A stretch of 64,000 nucleotides of DNA. Origin: Gemmatimonadetes bacterium 13_1_40CM_69_22 (GTDB taxonomy: Bacteria > Gemmatimonadota > Gemmatimonadetes > Gemmatimonadales > GWC2-71-9). The notes beneath the pieces are model-generated. The model was not told the DNA's origin. It saw nothing but the letters and a program-made list of their open reading frames with translations, and searched no databases. Positions 13,451 to 42,408 of this stretch are shown here, piece after piece. Location of the stretch: the NCBI GenBank assembly GCA_001917665.1, contig MNEL01000045.1:38964-102963 (forward strand), given 5' to 3'. A program made the position numbers and the translations under genes. How positions within the stretch are numbered: position 1 is the first letter of the stretch; the number at the start of each line of letters is the position of its first letter.

Positions 13451-13996
13451 ATGACCCATCTGGCAAAGACGAATCAGGTGGTGCTTGTGCAGCGGGTCGA
13501 GCGCCGGGTTCTGCTGATTCGGGGTGAGAAGCTAATGCTCGATAGCGATCTGGCAGCGCTTTATAGGGTCTCGACCGGCGCGCTCAATCAGGCGGTCCGG
13601 CGCAACCCCGAACGGTTTCCGTCGGACTTCATGTTCCAGCTCACGGAGCAGGAGCTGGGGAGCTGGAGATCCCAAACTGCGACATCGAGTTTGATATCAC
13701 AATCTGTGATGTCAAAGAGGCGCCGGGGTGGTCGTCGGCACCTGCCGTTCGCGTTTACCGAGCAGGGCGTCGCGATGCTGTCAGGCGTGCTCCGCAGCCG
13801 GCGCGCAATTCAGGTGAACATCGCGATCATGCGTGCATTCGTGCGGCTCCGCCAGCTGCTCGCGACGCACAAGGACCTTGCCCGTAAGCTTGAAGACCTT
13901 GAGCGACGCTACGACACAAGATTCAAAGTGGTGTTCGTGGCGATCCGCGAGCTCATCGCGCGGACCGAGCCGGCGAAGCGCCGCATCGGCTTCTAG
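13451..13996 (+). CDS. ORF6N-domain DNA-binding protein
   Basis: 181 residues from ATG 13451. The N-terminal half is an ORF6N domain: VLLIRGEKLMLDSDLAALYRVSTGALNQAVRRN, then RFPSDFMFQLTEQE and LPFAFTEQGVAMLSGVLRS, the usual marks of this KilA-N/ANT-like family found in phages and mobile islands. The C-terminal part is a basic coiled-coil-like helix (RLRQLLATHKDLARKLEDLERRY). Base composition is visibly lower in GC than its neighbours, and no phage genes flank it, so it looks like an isolated acquired gene. The family binds DNA; the target is unknown. Its TAG and that of the opposing enzyme gene overlap within one CTAG. Confidence 0.9.
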   Translation: MTHLAKTNQVVLVQRVERRVLLIRGEKLMLDSDLAALYRVSTGALNQAVRRNPERFPSDFMFQLTEQELGSWRSQTATSSLISQSVMSKRRRGGRRHLPFAFTEQGVAMLSGVLRSRRAIQVNIAIMRAFVRLRQLLATHKDLARKLEDLERRYDTRFKVVFVAIRELIARTEPAKRRIGF

Positions 13997-16900
13997 ATCG
14001 CGAAGGCCGCCGCCACGATCCGCGCCTGTTCCGCCTGGTGCGCCGCGGGATACCCCTCCGCCGGGCTGGAGCGTTCCGGGCGCCCGATATCGCGCACCGT
14101 AATGCCCGGGCCCGCCAGCTCGCGCAGCTGCGGCAGCATGAACTTCTGCGGCCCCATGTTGCGCGGCTCCTCCTGCACCCAGACGATCTCGCTGATCTTG
14201 GGGTAGCGCTTGACGAGCGCCGCGAGCTCGAGCGCGGGGAGGGGATAGAGCAGCTCCACCCGGCCGATCGCGACGTGGGACGCCTCGGTCCGGCGCGGCG
14301 AGAGCACGAGGTCGTAGTACACTTTGCCGCTGCACAGCACGAGCCGCGTCGCGCCACGGCGCGCGGCGCCTTCGGGGTCGTCCAGCACGGGCCGGAATCC
14401 GCCGGCCGTGAGGTCGTCGATCCGCGACGTCGCCTGGGGCAACCGCAGCAGGCTCTTCGGTGTGAAGAGGACGAGCGGTCGCAGCTCCGCGTGCCGCGCC
14501 TGGCGTCGCAGCAGATGGAAGTACTGCGCGGGCGTGGTGCAGTTCGCGATCCGGAGGTTGCCGTCCGCGCCGAGCGCCAAGAACCGCTCGATCCGCGCGC
14601 TCGAGTGCTCGGGGCCCTGGCCCTCGTAGCCGTGCGGCAGCAGCAGGGTCAGGCGTGACGTCTGTCCCCACTTCGCCAGGCCGGCGATGAGGAACTGATC
14701 GATGATCACCTCGCCGCCGTTGGTGAAGTCGCCGTACTGCGCCTCCCACAGCACCAGCGCGTCGGGTGCCGCGGCGGCGTAGCCGTATTCGAAGCCGAGG
14801 CACGCGAACTCGGAGAGCGGACTGTTGTGCAGCTCGAACGGCGCCCGCGCCGCCGGCAGGTTCTGGATCGGCGCATAGCGCTGGCCGTTCACCGTGTCGT
14901 GCAGCACGAGATGGCGCTGGCTGAACGTGCCCCGCTCGGTGTCCTGTCCGGTGAGCCGGATCGCGGTCCCCTCGACCAGGAGCGAGGCGAACGCGAGTGT
15001 CTCGGCGTGCGCCCACTCGATCGCGCCCTCCGTCAGGGCACCGCGGCGGCGCTCGAGCTGCTTCTTGAGCTTGGGATTGAGGCTGAACCCCGCAGGCACG
15101 ACCAGCAGCTGCTCGTTCAGCCCCGACAGCACCGGGGAAGCGACGGTCGTGTCCGGCTCCGCCACCGCTTGCTGCGCACCGGAAATCCGCTGCGGCTCCT
15201 CCCCCGCGCCGGCCTCGGAAAGGTGTGCCTTCAACGATTGCTGGATCTCGCTCAGCCGCTGGTAGAACCGCTCCGCCTCGGTGTCGGCCTGCGCGACGTC
15301 GAGCACGCGCTCGCCCGCGAGCTGCTCGGCATAACGGTGCCGCACGGTCGGCGTTTGCTTGATCCGCTCGTACATGAGCGGCTGGGTGTAGGCCGGCTCG
15401 TCCCCCTCGTTGTGCCCGTGCCGGCGGTAGCCCACGACGTCGATGACGACGTCGGCGTGGAACTTGTCGCGGTACATCATGGCGAGCCGCACGGCCGCGA
15501 GGCACGCCTCGGGGTCGTCGGCGTTCACGTGGATGATCGGCGCGTCGAAGCCCTTGGCGAGATCGCTCGAGTAGTCGGTCGAGCGCCCTTCCTTCGGGTC
15601 GGTGGTGAAGCCCACCTGGTTGTTGGCGATCAGGTGGATGGTGCCACCGGTCGTGTAGCCCCTGAGGCGCGCCAGGTTGAACGTCTCGGCCACGACGCCC
15701 TGCGCCGCGAACGACGCGTCGCCGTGGATCAGCACCGGCAGCGCGACGGTCCCGTCGTGGATGGGGTCCCTGCCGCGGCGGTTCGTCTGGTTGGCGCGCG
15801 CGCGGCCTTCCACCACGGGGTTCACCGCCTCGAGGTGACTCGGGTTGGGCGAGAGCGTGACGTTCACGGGCTTGCCCGACGCCGTCTGGTAGACGCCATC
15901 CGCGCCGTGGTGGTACTTCACGTCGCCCGTGCCCCCCTCGGGCGTGAGCGTCCCCTCCACGTGGCGCCCGCCCTCGAACTCGGCGAAGATCGTCTCGTAC
16001 GGCAGCCCGACGATGTGCGCCAGCACGTTGAGGCGCCCGCGGTGCGCCATCCCGAGCACTACCCGGCGGGCGCCGCTCGCGCCGGCCAGCTCGATCGTCT
16101 GGTCGAGCATCGGTACGAGAGCGTCGAGCCCCTCGATCGAGAAGCGCTTCTGGCCGAGGTACGCCTTGTGGAGGAAGCGCTCCAGCCCCTCCACCGCCGT
16201 CAGGCGTGACAGCAGCTTCTGCTTCTGCTCGGCCGAAAGCGGCGTGCGGTGCTGGCCGGACTCGACCACCTGGCGCAGCCACAGGCGCTCCACGTGGCTG
16301 CCGATGTGCTCGACCTCGTAGGCGATCGTGCCGCAGTACGTCTTCTGAAGCTCGGGGTACGCCTCGGCGAGCGTCCTGCCGGCGACGTAGATCCGCAGCA
16401 CGTCGGCCGGAATGCGCGCCATGATCTCCGCGGTGAGGCCGAGCGGACCGGGATCGAGCGCGGGATCGCCCGGCGGCTCCGAGCCCAGGGGGTCGAGCCG
16501 CGCCGCCATGTGGCCGAAGTTCCGGAACGCTTTCACCAAAGCCATCGCCGCGGCGACGTGCTTGAGGTCGGGGCTCGGGGCTGAGGGTTCGAGACTCGGG
16601 AGCGCCCGCGCCGTGGCCGTTCCGAGCCCCGAGCCCCTGGTCCCGAGTGCCGCTATCCCCAGAGTCTCCGCCACCTGCTCGTAGAACCGTTCCTCTCCCT
16701 GCAGCAGTGAATCCACCTCGCGCAGGAACAGCCCCGACTCCGCTCCCTGGATCACGCGGTGGTCGTAGGTGCTCGTGAGCGTCATGACCTTGGCTGGGCC
16801 GATTTGGCGGATGGCGCCCGTGGCGATGATCGAGCCTTGGCCCTTCATGAGACGCGGCACCGAAGCGACGGTGCCGATCGTGCCGGGGTTGGTGAGCGTG

Positions 16901-17595
16901 ATCGTGGCGCCCGCGAAGTCGTCAGGGAGCAGCTTGTTGGTGCGCGCCTTGTCGACCAGCGTCTCGTAGGTCGCGTGGAACGCGGCGAAGTCCATCCGCT
17001 CAGCGTGCTTGATCACCGGGACGACGAGGGCGCGACTCCCGTCCTTCTTCTCGACGTCCACTGCGAGCCCCAAGTTCACGCCCCGCGGGTCGAGGCGGTG
17101 CGGCTTCCCCGCGACCTCCTGGAACGCGTGCGTCATGACGGGGAGCTGCTTCGCCGCCTGCACGATCGCGAACCCGATCAGATGCGTGAACGAGATCTTC
17201 TTGCCGCTCGCGGCGAGCCCGGCGTTCAGCTCCTTGCGGCGCGCGTCGAGCGTGTCGACCACAGCCTCGCGGAACGACGTCGCAGTAGGCACGGACAGCG
17301 AGTCCGTCATGTTCTGGACGAGACGCGCCGCAGGACCGGTGATGGGGGTGAGGCCGGCGTTCGGGGTTCGGGGTTCGGGACTCGGGGCTTGCGCCTGCGT
17401 CCCGAGGCCCGAGTCCCGGGGCCCGAGCCCCGCGACCTCCTCGCGGCTCGTCGGGATCACCGGCAGCTCGGCGAGCTTCCCGTTGTCGAAGAGGTTGCGC
17501 CATTCTTCGCCCACCGAGGCGGGGTCGCGCAGGTACTGCTCATACATCACCTGCACGAAGGCGGCGTTGTGGGTGCCGAAGACGAACTGGCTCAC
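13993..17595 (-). CDS. kgd: Multifunctional 2-oxoglutarate decarboxylase/dehydrogenase with acyltransferase domain
   Basis: 1200 residues starting GTG 17595. Residues 1-40 are the E1o N-terminal helix that docks to E3. Residues 82-310 form a 2-oxoacid dehydrogenase acyltransferase domain without a lipoyl domain, with catalytic H279 in YDHRVIQGAESG. Residues 345-1200 form the thiamine-diphosphate E1 part (GMAHRGRLNVL, GDASFAAQGVVAETF, ANNQVGFTT, PHGYEGQGPEHSSAR, NMGPQKFM). The layout equals mycobacterial KGD/SucA, a TCA-cycle enzyme making succinyl-CoA or succinate semialdehyde. Oddly, the two linkers (residues 55-81 and 316-342) are encoded by inverted heptamer elements and have similar sequence (GLG...PSPEP). 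No E2/E3 genes are adjacent. Confidence 0.93.
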   Translation of the reverse strand: MSQFVFGTHNAAFVQVMYEQYLRDPASVGEEWRNLFDNGKLAELPVIPTSREEVAGLGPRDSGLGTQAQAPSPEPRTPNAGLTPITGPAARLVQNMTDSLSVPTATSFREAVVDTLDARRKELNAGLAASGKKISFTHLIGFAIVQAAKQLPVMTHAFQEVAGKPHRLDPRGVNLGLAVDVEKKDGSRALVVPVIKHAERMDFAAFHATYETLVDKARTNKLLPDDFAGATITLTNPGTIGTVASVPRLMKGQGSIIATGAIRQIGPAKVMTLTSTYDHRVIQGAESGLFLREVDSLLQGEERFYEQVAETLGIAALGTRGSGLGTATARALPSLEPSAPSPDLKHVAAAMALVKAFRNFGHMAARLDPLGSEPPGDPALDPGPLGLTAEIMARIPADVLRIYVAGRTLAEAYPELQKTYCGTIAYEVEHIGSHVERLWLRQVVESGQHRTPLSAEQKQKLLSRLTAVEGLERFLHKAYLGQKRFSIEGLDALVPMLDQTIELAGASGARRVVLGMAHRGRLNVLAHIVGLPYETIFAEFEGGRHVEGTLTPEGGTGDVKYHHGADGVYQTASGKPVNVTLSPNPSHLEAVNPVVEGRARANQTNRRGRDPIHDGTVALPVLIHGDASFAAQGVVAETFNLARLRGYTTGGTIHLIANNQVGFTTDPKEGRSTDYSSDLAKGFDAPIIHVNADDPEACLAAVRLAMMYRDKFHADVVIDVVGYRRHGHNEGDEPAYTQPLMYERIKQTPTVRHRYAEQLAGERVLDVAQADTEAERFYQRLSEIQQSLKAHLSEAGAGEEPQRISGAQQAVAEPDTTVASPVLSGLNEQLLVVPAGFSLNPKLKKQLERRRGALTEGAIEWAHAETLAFASLLVEGTAIRLTGQDTERGTFSQRHLVLHDTVNGQRYAPIQNLPAARAPFELHNSPLSEFACLGFEYGYAAAAPDALVLWEAQYGDFTNGGEVIIDQFLIAGLAKWGQTSRLTLLLPHGYEGQGPEHSSARIERFLALGADGNLRIANCTTPAQYFHLLRRQARHAELRPLVLFTPKSLLRLPQATSRIDDLTAGGFRPVLDDPEGAARRGATRLVLCSGKVYYDLVLSPRRTEASHVAIGRVELLYPLPALELAALVKRYPKISEIVWVQEEPRNMGPQKFMLPQLRELAGPGITVRDIGRPERSSPAEGYPAAHQAEQARIVAAAFAI
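16566..16647 (+). repeat. Inverted heptamer element inside kgd (second linker)
   Basis: Left arm units are GGTCGGG, GCTCGGG, GCTGAGG, GTTCGAG, ACTCGGG (16566-16600). Right arm units are TTCCGAG, CCCCGAG, CCCCTGG, TCCCGAG (16620-16647), whose complements are of the same type. The element is translated on the minus strand as part of residues 316-342, between the acyltransferase and E1 domains. The G-runs lie on the template strand and could form a quadruplex. Confidence 0.75.
17359..17432 (+). repeat. Inverted heptamer element inside kgd (first linker)
   Basis: Left arm: GTTCGGG three times, then ACTCGGG and GCTTGCG (17359-17393). Right arm: CGTCCCG, AGGCCCG, AGTCCCG, GGGCCCG, AGCCCCG (17398-17432), the facing orientation. 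It encodes most of residues 55-81 of the 2-oxoglutarate enzyme, between the N-terminal helix and the acyltransferase domain. Its unit type matches the second linker and the run at 55937. Confidence 0.8.
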
Positions 17596-25493: not shown

Positions 25494-25531
25494 GGGGGCT
25501 CCGAGGGGGAGAGACGGAGAGAAGATACTGC

Positions 25532-25587
25532 GTCAGACGCCAGACGTGCGACGTCAGCGCTGATGTCTGACGTCTGATGTCGGACGT
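25532..25587 (-). repeat. Inverted heptamer element after the AAA ATPase gene
   Basis: Left units are GTCAGAC, GCCAGAC, GTGCGAC, GTCAGCG; right units are CTGATGT, CTGACGT, CTGATGT, CGGACGT. The halves face each other around a central GCGC with no loop left over. It begins two bases after the ATPase stop and lies between two genes of the operon. The unit (GACGTC-type) is the same as in the run at 17612-17639. Confidence 0.75.
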
Positions 25588-33185: not shown

Positions 33186-34439
33186 TCAAGCATAATAGCC
33201 CGCCGCGCGGTACGATTCGTCGAGCAGCTCCACGGGATGACGCGCGGCGGCGCGGAGCCCGCTGGCGGCGAGCCCCGCCCCGAGCTGCATCAGGCACCCG
33301 GGGTTGCCGGTCGCGACCACCTGCGGCGACGCGGTGCGGAGCGACGCGAGCTTGGGCGCGAGCACTGCGCGCGACATCGCCGGCTCGAGCAGGGTGAACA
33401 GTCCGGCGCTGCCGCAGCACTGGGCGGCGTCGGGGAGGGACACGACGCGCAGCACCGGGATCGCCGCGAGCACGCGGTACGGCTCGTCGGCGATCCGCTG
33501 GGCGTGCAGCAAGTGGCACGGCGGATCGTAGGCCACCTGGACGTCGACAGGAGCGCCGGGCCGGGGACCCCGCGCGGCGAGCAGCTCGGTGACGTCGCGC
33601 ACCCGCGCCGCGAACCTCGCTTCGTCCACCAGATGACCGTACTCCTTCAGCATCGCCCCGCACCCCGCGCTGTTGACGACGACCGGCTCGTCGCCGTCGC
33701 CGTCGCCGAACGCCGCGACGTTCGCCCGCGCGAGCCGGCGTGCCTCCTCGCGCAGCCCGGCGTGGGCGTGCAGCGCACCGCAGCAGACTTGCCCGGGGAC
33801 CTCGCGCACCGCGTAGCCGTTCACCTCGAGCGTCCGCATGGTGGCGTCGTGGACGTGGGAGAAGAGGCCATCCATGACGCAGCCGCGGAACAGCAGGACG
33901 GTAGTCAGTGCGGAGTGCGGAGTGCGGCGTGCGGAGTCGGCGGTTACCCGTGGACTCCGCACTCCCCACTCCGCATTCCGCACTGGACGTGTCGCCGCCA
34001 GCATTCCCATAGCGAACCGCAGCCTTCCCCATCCCGCCACCGCGCCGGGAAGCCCCGTCGCCCGCAGCATGCGCGCGAGCCTGTAGGCGATGCGCGACGG
34101 GCCCGGCGTCGTCAGCGCCCACAGCGCCGCGCGCGCCAGCGGAGCCGGGCGGCGCTTGGTGGCGAGCAGCGCGCGGGCTGCTTCGATGCCGCGTCCGTAG
34201 CCGACGCCCGAGGGGCAGACCGGCTCGCAGCCGCGGCAGCCGAGGCAGCGATCGAGGTGGACGACGACGGCGGGGTCGTCGGGGGCGAGCTCGCCGGACT
34301 CGAGCGCGCGCATCAGCTCGATGCGTCCGCGCGGGCTATCGGCTTCGTCGCCGGTGGCGAGAAAAGTGGGGCATGCCTGGAGGCAGAAGCCACAGTGGAC
34401 GCAGGCGTCGAGCGCCTCGAACCCGCCGCGGTCAGACAT
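33186..34439 (-). CDS. glcF: Glycolate oxidase, iron-sulfur subunit
   Basis: 417 residues, ATG 34439. Two [4Fe-4S] motifs: C13VHC16GFC19LQAC23 and C65LGC68RGC71EPVC75. Two CCG domains follow (VCCGALHAHAG and CCGSAGLFTLL), with the last conserved Cys in GNPGCLMQLGAG. GlcF carries electrons from the flavin subunits to the membrane quinone pool. Unusual: about 26 residues (153-178) between AATRPV and TVLLFRGC are encoded by a 78-base inverted heptamer element, exactly in frame. The start lies nine bases from the glcE stop. Confidence 0.92.
   Translation of the reverse strand: MSDRGGFEALDACVHCGFCLQACPTFLATGDEADSPRGRIELMRALESGELAPDDPAVVVHLDRCLGCRGCEPVCPSGVGYGRGIEAARALLATKRRPAPLARAALWALTTPGPSRIAYRLARMLRATGLPGAVAGWGRLRFAMGMLAATRPVRNAEWGVRSPRVTADSARRTPHSALTTVLLFRGCVMDGLFSHVHDATMRTLEVNGYAVREVPGQVCCGALHAHAGLREEARRLARANVAAFGDGDGDEPVVVNSAGCGAMLKEYGHLVDEARFAARVRDVTELLAARGPRPGAPVDVQVAYDPPCHLLHAQRIADEPYRVLAAIPVLRVVSLPDAAQCCGSAGLFTLLEPAMSRAVLAPKLASLRTASPQVVATGNPGCLMQLGAGLAASGLRAAARHPVELLDESYRAAGYYA
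33907..33984 (-). repeat. Inverted heptamer element inside glcF
   Basis: Left arm 33907-33938: AGTGCGG three times, CGTGCGG, AGTC. Loop of 14 bases. Right arm 33953-33984: GACT, CCGCACT, CCCCACT, CCGCATT, CCGCACT. The arms are complementary at 29 of 32 positions by my count. The whole is 78 bases, a multiple of three, so glcF stays in frame with 26 extra codons. It is the clearest example of the hairpin family in the window. Confidence 0.9.
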
Positions 34440-34448
34440 GCATCGGCT

Positions 34449-35660
34449 TCACTCGGAGCCTTCGACGGCCACCACGAATGCTTCGCCGGGGTCGAAGGTG
34501 CGTCGCAGGCCCGCGATGAGCGGGCCCACGCCTTCGCGGTAGGCGCCGAAGTGGCCCACCGCGCTCCGGATCGACCAGGGGGCGCGCTCCAGGGTGAGCG
34601 GCACCTCGAGCCCCGCGAGCGTGCGGCGCAGGCGGCGCAGCCGGTCCACCGTGGTGTCCCCCGCCCAGCGGATCGCGCCGACGCCGGGGCTCGCCGACAC
34701 CCACTCGTCGCCCACCTGATGCTGCAGCAGGTCGAGCAGCTCGTCGCTCGAGTCCGGCAGGCCGCCGGTCCGGAACGCGACGGGGCGGGTCGCGAAGCTC
34801 TCCGCCGCCCGCATCCAGAATCCGTGCGCCTCGTCGGCACGCAGCGCCGTGAACCGGCCGCCGCTCGCTCCACGCAGCCCCGCCTCTTCGGCGGCGACGA
34901 GCGCCGCCGACCCCGCCAGCCGCACCGCCAGACCCCAGCCCTCGCGCCGCGCCAGCGCCGGCGACATCAGCTCGAGCGCGGCCGGCTGGAGCCCCGCGGC
35001 GATGATGTCTTCAGCGACCTGTGTCAGATCTTCCCGTGTGCCCTCGAGGACGAACGTCTGGTCGGCGCGGGGCAGGGCGCGGAGCCGCAGGTGCACCAGC
35101 ACGATCACGCCGAACGCGCCGAATCCGCCCGCTTCCAGCTTGGTGAGGTCGTACCCGGCGACGTTCTTGACGACACGCCCGCCGCTCTGTACCAGGCGGC
35201 CGTCACCGGTGACGAACGTGACGCCGAGGACGTGGTCGCGCACCGCGCCGAAGCCCTGGCGCAGCGGCCCCGCGGTCGCCGTGGCCACGACGGAGCCGAG
35301 CGTGCGCCCGGCGAGGCCGGGAGGATCGAGCGCGAGCCAGGTGCCGCGGTCGGCGAGCTGCTGGCGCAACAGGTCGCAGCCGATCCCCGCCTCGGCGGTG
35401 GCGGAGAGGTCCTGCGGCTCGATCGCGGGGACGCGGTCTAGTCGCCGGGTGGTGAGCGCGAGGTCGGCGGGAGCGTCGGCGGGCAGCCACGTCCCGGCGC
35501 CCTCGAGCCGGACGCGCCATCCCTCCTGGCGCGCCGTGCCGAGCAGCAGCGCGACTGCATCGGGGGAGGCGGGTGCCACCCGCGGCACCGCGTCGGGGCC
35601 GCCGGCGAGCTCCACGGCGTCTGCGCCGAGCAAGGCGCGGACTCGTTCGACCAGGGTCAT
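34449..35660 (-). CDS. glcE: Glycolate oxidase, FAD-binding subunit GlcE
   Basis: 403 residues, ATG 35660 overlapping the glcD stop as ATGA. It is a shortened FAD-linked oxidase: WRVRLEGAGTWLP, DLSATAEAGIGCDLL, GLAGRTLGSVVAT and GDGRLVQSGGRVVKNVAGYDLTKL form the FAD domain. The C-terminal part lacks the full GlcD cap and ends FDPGEAFVV. It is known to be required with GlcD and GlcF for glycolate:acceptor oxidoreductase activity. The order glcD-glcE-glcF matches E. coli. Confidence 0.9.
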   Translation of the reverse strand: MTLVERVRALLGADAVELAGGPDAVPRVAPASPDAVALLLGTARQEGWRVRLEGAGTWLPADAPADLALTTRRLDRVPAIEPQDLSATAEAGIGCDLLRQQLADRGTWLALDPPGLAGRTLGSVVATATAGPLRQGFGAVRDHVLGVTFVTGDGRLVQSGGRVVKNVAGYDLTKLEAGGFGAFGVIVLVHLRLRALPRADQTFVLEGTREDLTQVAEDIIAAGLQPAALELMSPALARREGWGLAVRLAGSAALVAAEEAGLRGASGGRFTALRADEAHGFWMRAAESFATRPVAFRTGGLPDSSDELLDLLQHQVGDEWVSASPGVGAIRWAGDTTVDRLRRLRRTLAGLEVPLTLERAPWSIRSAVGHFGAYREGVGPLIAGLRRTFDPGEAFVVAVEGSE

Positions 35661-37156
35661 GGGGCCAACGCGGAAGTCGGAATGGGGAACGTGGAACTGG
35701 AGGGGGCGATCGGGTTCCGCGTCCCGCGTTCCGCGTTCCGCGTTCCAATTCCCGACCACTCCCGGCACGCATGCACCGGGACCACCTTCCCAGGGTTCAC
35801 CCGCTCCTCCGGGTCCCACACGCGCCGCACGGCACGCATCGCCGTGAGCGATTCCGCATCGAAGATCAACGGCATATAGCGCAGCTTGTCGAGCCCCACG
35901 CCGTGCTCGCCGGTGATCGTGCCTCCCACGGCGATGCACGCCTCCATGATCTCGGTACTCGCGGCGTCCACCCTGGCCTTGAGCCCCGGCACGCGGCCGT
36001 CGAACGAGATGTTGGGGTGCAGGTTGCCGTCGCCGGCGTGGAACACGTTGCTCACCGTGAGCTGATACGTCGCCGCGATGCGTGCGATTGTCTCGAGCAC
36101 ATCGGGGAGGGTCGAGCGGGGGACGACGGCATCCTGCACGACGAGGTCGCGGGAGAGACGGCCCATCGCGCCGAACGCCTTCTTGCGGCCCTGCCACAAG
36201 CGCTCGCGCTCGCGCGCGTCGGCGGCGGTGCGGGTCGAGCGGGCGCCGTGCTCCCGCAGCACGCTCTGGATGGTCTCGGCGTCGGCCGTGACCGCGGCCT
36301 CGGAGCCGCCGTCGAGCTCGACGAGCAGCACCGCGGCGGCGTCGCGCGGATACCCCGCCGCGTACACGGAGTCCTCGACCGCGCGGACGCACGACTGGTC
36401 CATCATCTCGAGCGCGGCGGGAACGATGCCGCTGGCGATGACGGCCGAGACGGCTTCGCCGGCGGTCCGGAGCGACGTGAAGTCCGCGAGCAGCGTGCGC
36501 ACCGCGCGCGGCAGCGGGAGCAGCCGCACGGCGATGCGGGTCGCGATCCCGAAGTTCCCCTCGGAGCCGACGAACAGCCCGACCAGGTCCGGCCCCCACG
36601 GCTCGCCGCCCGGGCTGCCGAGCTCCACGACGCGGCCGTCGCCCAGCACCACTTCGAGCGCGAGCACGTGCTGCGCGGTGACACCGTATTTGAGGCAATG
36701 TGGGCCGCCCGCGTTCTCGGCCACGTTGCCGCCCAGGGTGCACGCCGTCTGGCTCGAGGGGTCGGGGGCGTAGTACAGGCCGTGCGGCGCCGCGGCGACC
36801 GAGAGGCGCGCGTTCACCACACCAGGCTCCACCAGCGCGATCCGGTTCTTGGGATCGACGCCGAGAATGCGGTTCAACCGGGTGAGGACCAGCAGTACGG
36901 CGGACCCGTCCGCGAGGGCCCCGCCGGACAGCCCGGTCCCGGCGCCCCGCGGCACGACGGGGACGCCATGGGCGGCCAGCAGCCGCACCACCGCGATGAC
37001 CTCCTCTCGGCTGCCGGGCAGCACCACGACCGCCGGCACGCGGCGGTGGGTCGGCAGGCCATCCCGCGCGTAGGTGACGCGCTCGGCGGGCGCGGTGCGC
37101 ACGTGCCGCGCGCCCACGATGCCCGCCAGCGCCTCGACCAGCCCCGCGGTGATCAT
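35657..37156 (-). CDS. glcD: Glycolate oxidase, FAD-linked catalytic subunit GlcD
   Basis: 499 residues, ATG 37156 overlapping the LON-domain gene stop as ATGA. FAD-binding marks: VPRGAGTGLSGGAL, PDPSSQTACTLGGNVAENAGG, FVGSEGNFGI; the C-terminal cap has SNVFHAGDGNLHPNISFD and GEHGVGLDKLRYM. It oxidises glycolate (or D-lactate-like 2-hydroxy acids) to glyoxylate. The usual C-terminus of the family is near NPGKVVP; here about 35 residues follow, most encoded by an inverted run of GGAACGC-type heptamers, giving RNAERGTRN. The tail is probably disordered. Confidence 0.92.
   Translation of the reverse strand: MITAGLVEALAGIVGARHVRTAPAERVTYARDGLPTHRRVPAVVVLPGSREEVIAVVRLLAAHGVPVVPRGAGTGLSGGALADGSAVLLVLTRLNRILGVDPKNRIALVEPGVVNARLSVAAAPHGLYYAPDPSSQTACTLGGNVAENAGGPHCLKYGVTAQHVLALEVVLGDGRVVELGSPGGEPWGPDLVGLFVGSEGNFGIATRIAVRLLPLPRAVRTLLADFTSLRTAGEAVSAVIASGIVPAALEMMDQSCVRAVEDSVYAAGYPRDAAAVLLVELDGGSEAAVTADAETIQSVLREHGARSTRTAADARERERLWQGRKKAFGAMGRLSRDLVVQDAVVPRSTLPDVLETIARIAATYQLTVSNVFHAGDGNLHPNISFDGRVPGLKARVDAASTEIMEACIAVGGTITGEHGVGLDKLRYMPLIFDAESLTAMRAVRRVWDPEERVNPGKVVPVHACREWSGIGTRNAERGTRNPIAPSSSTFPIPTSALAP
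35669..35756 (-). repeat. Inverted heptamer element forming the glcD 3' end
   Basis: Left units CGCGGAA, GTCGGAA, TGGGGAA, CGTGGAA, CTGGAGG (35669-35703). Right units TTCCGCG, TCCCGCG, TTCCGCG, TTCCGCG, TTCCAAT, TCCCGAC (35715-35756), facing them. Translated on the minus strand it makes the last 30 or so residues of GlcD; the stop and the glcE start follow directly. Confidence 0.8.
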
Positions 37157-37849: not shown

Positions 37850-38097
37850 ATAGACGGGTAGACGGGTAGACGGCGAGCGGTGGGGAGAAATAGACGGGTA
37901 GACGGGTAGACGGGTAGATGGGTAGATGGGTAGAGGGGTAGACGGCGAGTGGTGGCTAGACAAGACGAAGTGGCTAGGAAGGCCTTTCCTAGCCACTGCA
38001 CGCTAGCTACCGCTATCCGTCTAACCGTCTAACCGTCTATCCGTCTATCCGTCTATCCGTCTATCCGTCTATCCGTCTATCCGTCTATCCGTCTATT
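37850..38097. repeat. Large inverted octamer element between the sigma factor and LON-domain genes
   Basis: Left arm (about 37850-37946): ten TAGACGGG-type octamers (variants TAGATGGG, TAGAGGGG) in two groups, with the 16-base interruption keeping the 8-base phase. Centre: a perfect hairpin with 12-base arms AGTGGCTAGGAA / TTCCTAGCCACT (37969-37980 and 37986-37997). Right arm (38017-38096): ten units CCGTCTAA/CCGTCTAT, the complement of the left arm. No open frame of interest lies inside. It ends three bases before the sigma factor stop. Possible roles: terminator for the sigma gene or a barrier between transcription units. Confidence 0.9.
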
Positions 38098-42335: not shown

Positions 42336-42408
42336 GGCGTCACGCGAAGGCGTCACGCGAAGACGTCTCCGCGTGACGCCCTTCTCTTGACGCTTCCGCG
42401 TGACGCAC
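42336..42408 (+). terminator. Nested inverted repeat after the ferredoxin reductase gene
   Basis: Two direct copies of the 13-mer GGCGTCACGCGAA (42336-42361) face CGCGTGACGCC (42370-42380) and TTCCGCGTGACGC (42394-42406). The inner pair GGCGTCACGCG / CGCGTGACGCC (42349-42359 and 42370-42380) is a perfect 11-base stem with a 10-base loop. It lies three bases after the stop, so a terminator is likely. No strong T-run follows. Same build as the heptamer elements, with a longer unit. Confidence 0.65.

Follow-up and report, generated by a model that had tools for sequence, protein, structure and literature searches.

An in-frame hairpin with tandem-repeat arms in glcF

The window analysed here, a stretch of 64,000 nucleotides of contig MNEL01000045.1, belongs to the 2.36-Mb MAG of Gemmatimonadetes bacterium 13_1_40CM_69_22, whose closest named relatives are soil MAGs of Gemmatimonadota. 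It contains glcF, which encodes the iron-sulfur subunit of glycolate oxidase and is interrupted, in frame, by a hairpin whose two arms are tandem arrays of a short unit. This gene, its hairpin and the further hairpins of the window are listed in Table 1.

Table 1. Coordinates of glcF, its hairpin and the other tandem-arm hairpins of the window.
Feature	Position in window	Strand	Description or evidence
Tandem-arm hairpin, unit CGGGGTT	17362..17432	-	Same class; in frame (codons 55-78) in the N-terminal linker of a gene (13993-17595, minus) that we take to be sucA, having recognised its sequence
Tandem-arm hairpin, GTCAGAC-like unit	25531..25586		Same class; intergenic; in relatives the corresponding site is filled in some and empty in others
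glcF, glycolate oxidase iron-sulfur subunit, 417 aa	33186..34439	-	ORF; Pfam Fer4_8 + CCG; matched in 61/61 genomes
Hairpin element in glcF, 78 nt, in frame, residues 152-178	33907..33984	-	Arm pairing; fold z -10.3
Arm 1 of the glcF hairpin	33907..33938		~4.4 tandem copies of AGTGCGG
Loop of the glcF hairpin	33939..33952		14 nt
Arm 2 of the glcF hairpin	33953..33984		~4.4 tandem copies of ACTCCGC; reverse-complementary to arm 1
Tandem-arm hairpin, unit AACGCGG	35667..35744	-	Same class; glcD-glcE junction; encodes the glcD C-terminal tail
8-mer arrays TAGACGGG / CTATCCGT	37890..38072		Same class; intergenic
Hairpin with 13-mer unit GCGTCACGCGAAG	42337..42406		Same architecture; intergenic

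The arms of the glcF hairpin pair at 29 of 32 positions, and the element can be extended by 1 nt at each end (33906-33985), with 38-nt arms at 33906-33943 and 33948-33985. When compared with dinucleotide shuffles, the sequence has a fold z-score of -10.3 as DNA and -10.0 as RNA, and none of 200 shuffles folds as well. The element introduces neither a stop codon nor a change of frame into the ORF. Pfam places Fer4 before the hairpin-encoded residues (at 10-79) and CCG after them (from 181), and in an AlphaFold2 model of GlcF (mean pLDDT 87) residues 155-172 are the only segment of at least three residues with pLDDT below 50. The hairpin-encoded segment is thus predicted to form an arginine-containing, disordered interdomain loop. 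Both the hairpin itself and its position as an Arg-containing loop between the Fe-S and CCG domains had been proposed in a first-pass annotation of this DNA, and our analysis bears them out. Beyond what was proposed there, the arms prove to be tandem 7-mer arrays, and the architecture recurs at the other positions in Table 1 and throughout the genome.

The first-pass annotation also ascribed the tolerance of the element to its length being a multiple of three. This is needed, but it is not the whole story, since most units are coprime to 3 in length and most of those lying in genes are free of stop codons in every frame on both strands. With periods of 7, 8 and 10, all coprime to 3, a long array therefore reads through either in every frame or in none. 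In L151 (GGCGGTTA) and L156 (GGCGGATA), the two glcF arrays with TAG in their unit, the codon TGG stands exactly at the in-frame TAG position, a pattern in the sequence that fits selection filtering what settles in glcF.

Hairpins of changing unit families occupy the glcF linker in close relatives

We compared 90 distinct GlcF genes and searched 61 genomes. The 29 GlcF genes with at least 70% identity form a single clade (SH-aLRT 100), and 27 of them, including the one studied here, carry a hairpin in the linker; in 28 of the 29 clade members the linker outscores every other window of its own glcF. The units differ, also between sisters: this genome has AGTGCGG and the 91%-identical G004 the octamer GTCGGACG. 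AACGCGG is the unit of G001, G003 and G022, and GGTGGAGGTC-type decamers are present in G002 and G028. On a quick single-gene glcF tree of 50 rows, with unit-family labels assigned by hand, the label changes at least 20 times.

The median linker measures 103.5 nt without a hairpin and 129 nt with one (129 nt here), and 93 nt in L177, a clade member that lacks the hairpin. While the earlier figure of exactly 26 codons correctly gives the length of the element, its net excess over hairpin-less orthologues is only about 9-12 codons, and because of this difference the element is best described as filling a variable linker, not as 26 codons added to a fixed one. The hairpin has been lost or eroded in L177 and L163, and more distant orthologues are mostly without it. 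Among these, L046 and L174, from distant Gemmatimonadales, have an apparent palindrome in the glcF linker which we take to belong to the CHCEARSDEA class, and which would be an independent occupation by another class of hairpin. A further gene in the comparison, L166, lies on a contig binned as Actinobacteria (VAWH01000017) and is a Gemmatimonadota glcF at 83% identity, probably as the result of a binning error.

A dispersed class of hairpins at gene edges and in coding linkers

The glcF element has 105 BLAST matches in its own MAG. A detector of periodic arms, run on 900 kb of the genome, returned 46 hairpins, compared with 1 in 368 kb of shuffled sequence. They fall into several unit families, of which the ANNGCGG heptamers are the largest; the others include octamers (TAGACGGG, GGAACGATGGAACGTT and CACGACGCC), a decamer and a 13-mer. 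By our home-made gene calls, 36 of the 46 lie at gene edges or between genes, although 93% of the DNA is coding, and spacers of divergent genes hold just 3 of these 36. In a stricter set of 35 hairpins, 22 begin no more than 30 nt from a stop codon. The calls made at C45 67318 (window 28355), 10304, C2:26805 and C58:54826 probably represent other repeats or artefacts of GC-rich coding sequence. At 37851-38096 the long inverted octamer arrays TAGACGGG and CTATCCGT are accompanied by a second, inner stem, and relatives have mostly shorter, non-periodic hairpins at this site.

The glcF hairpin has no second copy of near identity in the genome: its closest counterpart there shares 76% identity over 74 nt, so that a recent copy-paste event is not demonstrated. 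The AATGCGG array occurs in 12 of 200 genomes of the phylum, all of them within the taxonomic family of the host; 3 of 61 genomes carry the decamer pattern, and these include both sampled genomes with a decamer in glcF (G002 and G028); and GTCGGACG, of which G004 has multiple copies, is missing from G000. The occupants of a site thus tend to match the unit family that is amplified in their own genome.

Other sites behave in a similar manner. At the glcD-glcE junction, where the hairpin (35640-35770) lengthens the glcD frame by about 30 residues (GIGTRNAERGTRNPIAPSSSTFPIPTSALAP), the flanks of G001 and G003 are 91-92% identical, and yet their units differ and their loops are unrelated; G004 and G002 carry a REPIN-like CCCCGGG/GTCAG element at this junction. 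In a gene outside the window (C45:113546-114718), which from its sequence is presumably tgt, the site measures 117-126 nt when filled and 63-72 nt when empty, with both states found in one genus and with several types of octamer. The more distant genus of L253 (G006), whose relatives are otherwise mostly empty at tgt, shows an independent octamer hairpin there (ACCGACCT). The N-terminal linker of sucA has four heptamer types within the genus.

Turnover at the glcF linker looks like replacement

Across 406 species pairs, identity in the linker was only weakly tied to identity in the gene (Spearman 0.25, as compared with 0.40-0.87 in 21 control windows), and the linker fell more than 25 points below its flanks in 49 of the 406 pairs, as against 0-1 pairs in each of the 21 control windows. 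In the sister genes L029 and L030, for instance, the glcF flanks are 92-95% identical and the linker 46%. There are also pairs in which the hairpin is more alike than its flanks: L158-L160 (95% in the hairpin versus 58% at flank third positions), L030-L166 (92% versus 67%) and L144-L218 (90% versus 63%). In these pairs, which join non-sister or loosely sister species, the likeness extends to the loops, and the adjacent 100 nt on each side show no excess likeness in hairpin-sharing glcF pairs. Hairpins of the same type look younger than the genes that host them, and turnover at glcF, judged by these comparisons, looks like replacement rather than divergence. Drift of one ancestral hairpin is disfavoured by the replacement of loops and by the jumps in period.

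Alternative explanations

The first-pass annotation read the hairpin as an insertion that struck this strain once and by chance, and that its length of 78 nt made tolerable. The in-frame position and the disordered loop agree with this, and the 26 residues appear with non-repetitive codons, which that annotation had held to speak against an insertion, in no orthologue. Twenty-six further species of the clade, however, have hairpins of other units at this site, which rules out a lone insertion and leaves a one-off event in this strain extremely improbable. The near-universal presence of a hairpin in the clade could instead reflect a conserved functional structure, that is, selection for a translational pause between the domains or for an mRNA element, in which any fold would serve, and the tendency of the class to hug gene 3' ends is likewise what one would expect of RNA elements. 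Against this stand the loss or erosion of the hairpin in L177 and L163 and its rarity in more distant orthologues, the empty tgt site even in the genus members G001 and G003, and the fact that a pause needs no tandem arms, so that we consider such a function unlikely to be the explanation. Homologous recombination of glcF alleles between species, without any mobile element, would make the linkers of L030-L166, L144-L218 and L158-L160 more alike than their flanks. The likeness, though, does not carry over into the 100 nt on each side, which match no better than the remainder of the gene, so that recombination tracts would need to stop at the hairpin. The genome-wide dispersal of the class and the origin of new units would also be left unexplained, and such recombination too seems to us improbable.

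A different kind of history, in which an old hairpin stays in place while slippage between tandem units, together with template switching between its arms, again and again homogenises mutations and lets the unit drift as palindromy and periodicity endure, has evidence of its own. At many sites, intergenic ones often among them, units change and the period is kept (C45:114119 always has 8-mers; 114728 and 115862 always have 7-mers), which is counter-evidence to replacement, as in-place homogenisation could also give a constant period at a site. One-step variants (AACGCGG/AATGCGG/AGTGCGG/ATTGCGG) are common, and mosaics exist, such as AATGCGG-AGTGCGG in G034. On the other side, the period at glcF jumps between 7, 8 and 10, the loop can be wholly changed along with the unit where flanks are 91-92% identical, non-sister species have hairpins in common, loops included, and the unit is of the family that the genome itself has amplified. 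Taken together, these observations make such concerted evolution in place quite unlikely.

The reading that we consider probable is that these are dispersed, mobile-looking hairpins, one of which entered the glcF linker long ago, and that its descendants at this site were then repeatedly replaced by hairpins of other unit families. The class comprises small hairpins (~70-130 nt), each arm of which repeats a unit of 7, 8, 10 or 13 bases in tandem. Most copies lie directly behind stop codons, and a few have their place in linkers of core enzymes that permit them (glcF, tgt and sucA), where they would be translated as disordered loops. Entry into glcF most likely took place once, in the ancestor of the 29-species clade of this Gemmatimonadota family. 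The later occupants would have been drawn, it seems, from whichever other families had multiplied in a given lineage, and were sometimes common to several lineages, with selection preserving length modulo 3 and removing in-frame stops.

What the sequences show directly is that the hairpins are dispersed, that species share a site while its units turn over, that some sites are empty, that frame and freedom from stops are maintained, and that hairpins can be more alike than their flanks. We infer that copies move as elements and that occupants are physically replaced rather than gradually altered, by an exchange that would be driven by single-stranded DNA or by microhomology. Replacement could proceed by single-stranded transposition, by illegitimate exchange over a short stretch or with another hairpin serving as the template; short-patch double illegitimate recombination is a candidate mechanism for such an exchange. 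With many unit families sharing one architecture and replacing one another at fixed sites, one may also speculate, though we think it unlikely, that there is an activity that makes or swaps tandem-repeat hairpins, in place of independent transposon families, for example by templated repeat synthesis at a cruciform or by hairpin-for-hairpin exchange of single strands.

In glcF, a codon-precise site in a core enzyme is occupied in 27 species, and the whole occupant appears to have been exchanged between sister species with frame and fold kept. The site offers a test of how small bacterial hairpins spread, whether they move, displace one another or are rewritten where they stand, and it suggests a role for selfish DNA as a supplier of disordered linkers to enzymes.

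Comparison with known mobile hairpins

Among the 35 hairpins of the stricter set, GTAG is found at the foot of 2 (1.9 expected) and CGTC at the foot of 11 (8.2 expected), counts near expectation that give no ground for membership of the REPs; no conserved terminal tag was found in this set, and a target-site duplication of at least 6 nt accompanies 0 of 35, which speaks against membership of the MITEs. A transposase search covering the Y1 family identified three Y1_Tnp genes in this genome, all beside other repeats. No cognate RAYT flanked by tandem-arm hairpins was found among the three, and mobilisation by a RAYT was rejected, as none of these genes adjoins such hairpins.

The genome does have a Y1 transposase with REPs, and their CTGACCCCGGG repeats are separate from the tandem-arm hairpins. 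At L060 1285-2180 (C58 near 39067) a Y1 transposase has CTGACCCCGGGCGCAAGCCCGGGGT repeats on both sides and is likely a REP/RAYT system. A degenerate array of ~18-nt repeats (GGTGATGACGTCCGAGTCT) lies beside a second Y1 transposase at L059 1100-1500 (C29 near 67706), together with GGGACT-AAGTCCC hairpins.

In its features the glcF element comes close to Rickettsia palindromic elements (RPEs), to intragenic REPs and to the heptamer stems of Nostoc, with proven membership in none of these groups; because the defining tests for REPs and MITEs fail, we place it among the mobile hairpins of bacteria as a variant of its own. We found no literature on such elements in Gemmatimonadota. RPEs are inserted in frame in Rickettsia genes (PMC10969869), and like the present class they are dispersed palindromes that lie in frame in core genes of known function (here glcF, tgt and sucA), where the encoded peptide is tolerated. 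Compared by description, however, RPEs are ~150 bp long and form conserved sequence families with a conserved peptide (PMC10969869), whereas the hairpins described here have arms of tandem short units, and unrelated units occupy one site in different species.

REPs lie behind genes and occasionally inside them, where they encode 20-30 aa (PMC3733652). REPs, REPINs and intragenic REP dimers share with the present class a location after stop codons, between co-directional or convergent genes (PMC3733652, PMC3116915); by our home-made gene calls, the hairpins of this genome are mostly extragenic, downstream of ORFs and rarely between divergent genes. Unlike REPs and REPINs, they have no GTAG/CGTC end tag, their arms are tandem arrays and no RAYT lies alongside. 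With MITEs they have in common that they are small, non-autonomous, dispersed and built of inverted repeats, but target-site duplications are absent (0/35) and the Y1 search yielded no parent transposase.

Cyanobacterial STRR heptamers form stems made of heptanucleotide repeats. In the P6b stem of the Nostoc trnL intron, which is built of heptanucleotides, the unit class has been replaced repeatedly and independently of phylogeny (PMC4476775). The two systems have in common stem arms of tandem heptanucleotides and replacement of the unit class at one orthologous site. The Nostoc stem lies in a group I intron of a tRNA gene and has two unit classes (TDNGATT / NNTGAGT), motifs that would have to sit in a tRNA-Leu intron; here the units are AGTGCGG and others and the host is glcF, which sets the element apart from the trnL stems. 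The hairpins described here instead occupy protein-coding linkers and intergenic DNA in another phylum, with many units and several periods. In this way the replacement of heptamer stems known from Nostoc, itself unexplained, is extended beyond its phylum and into coding DNA.
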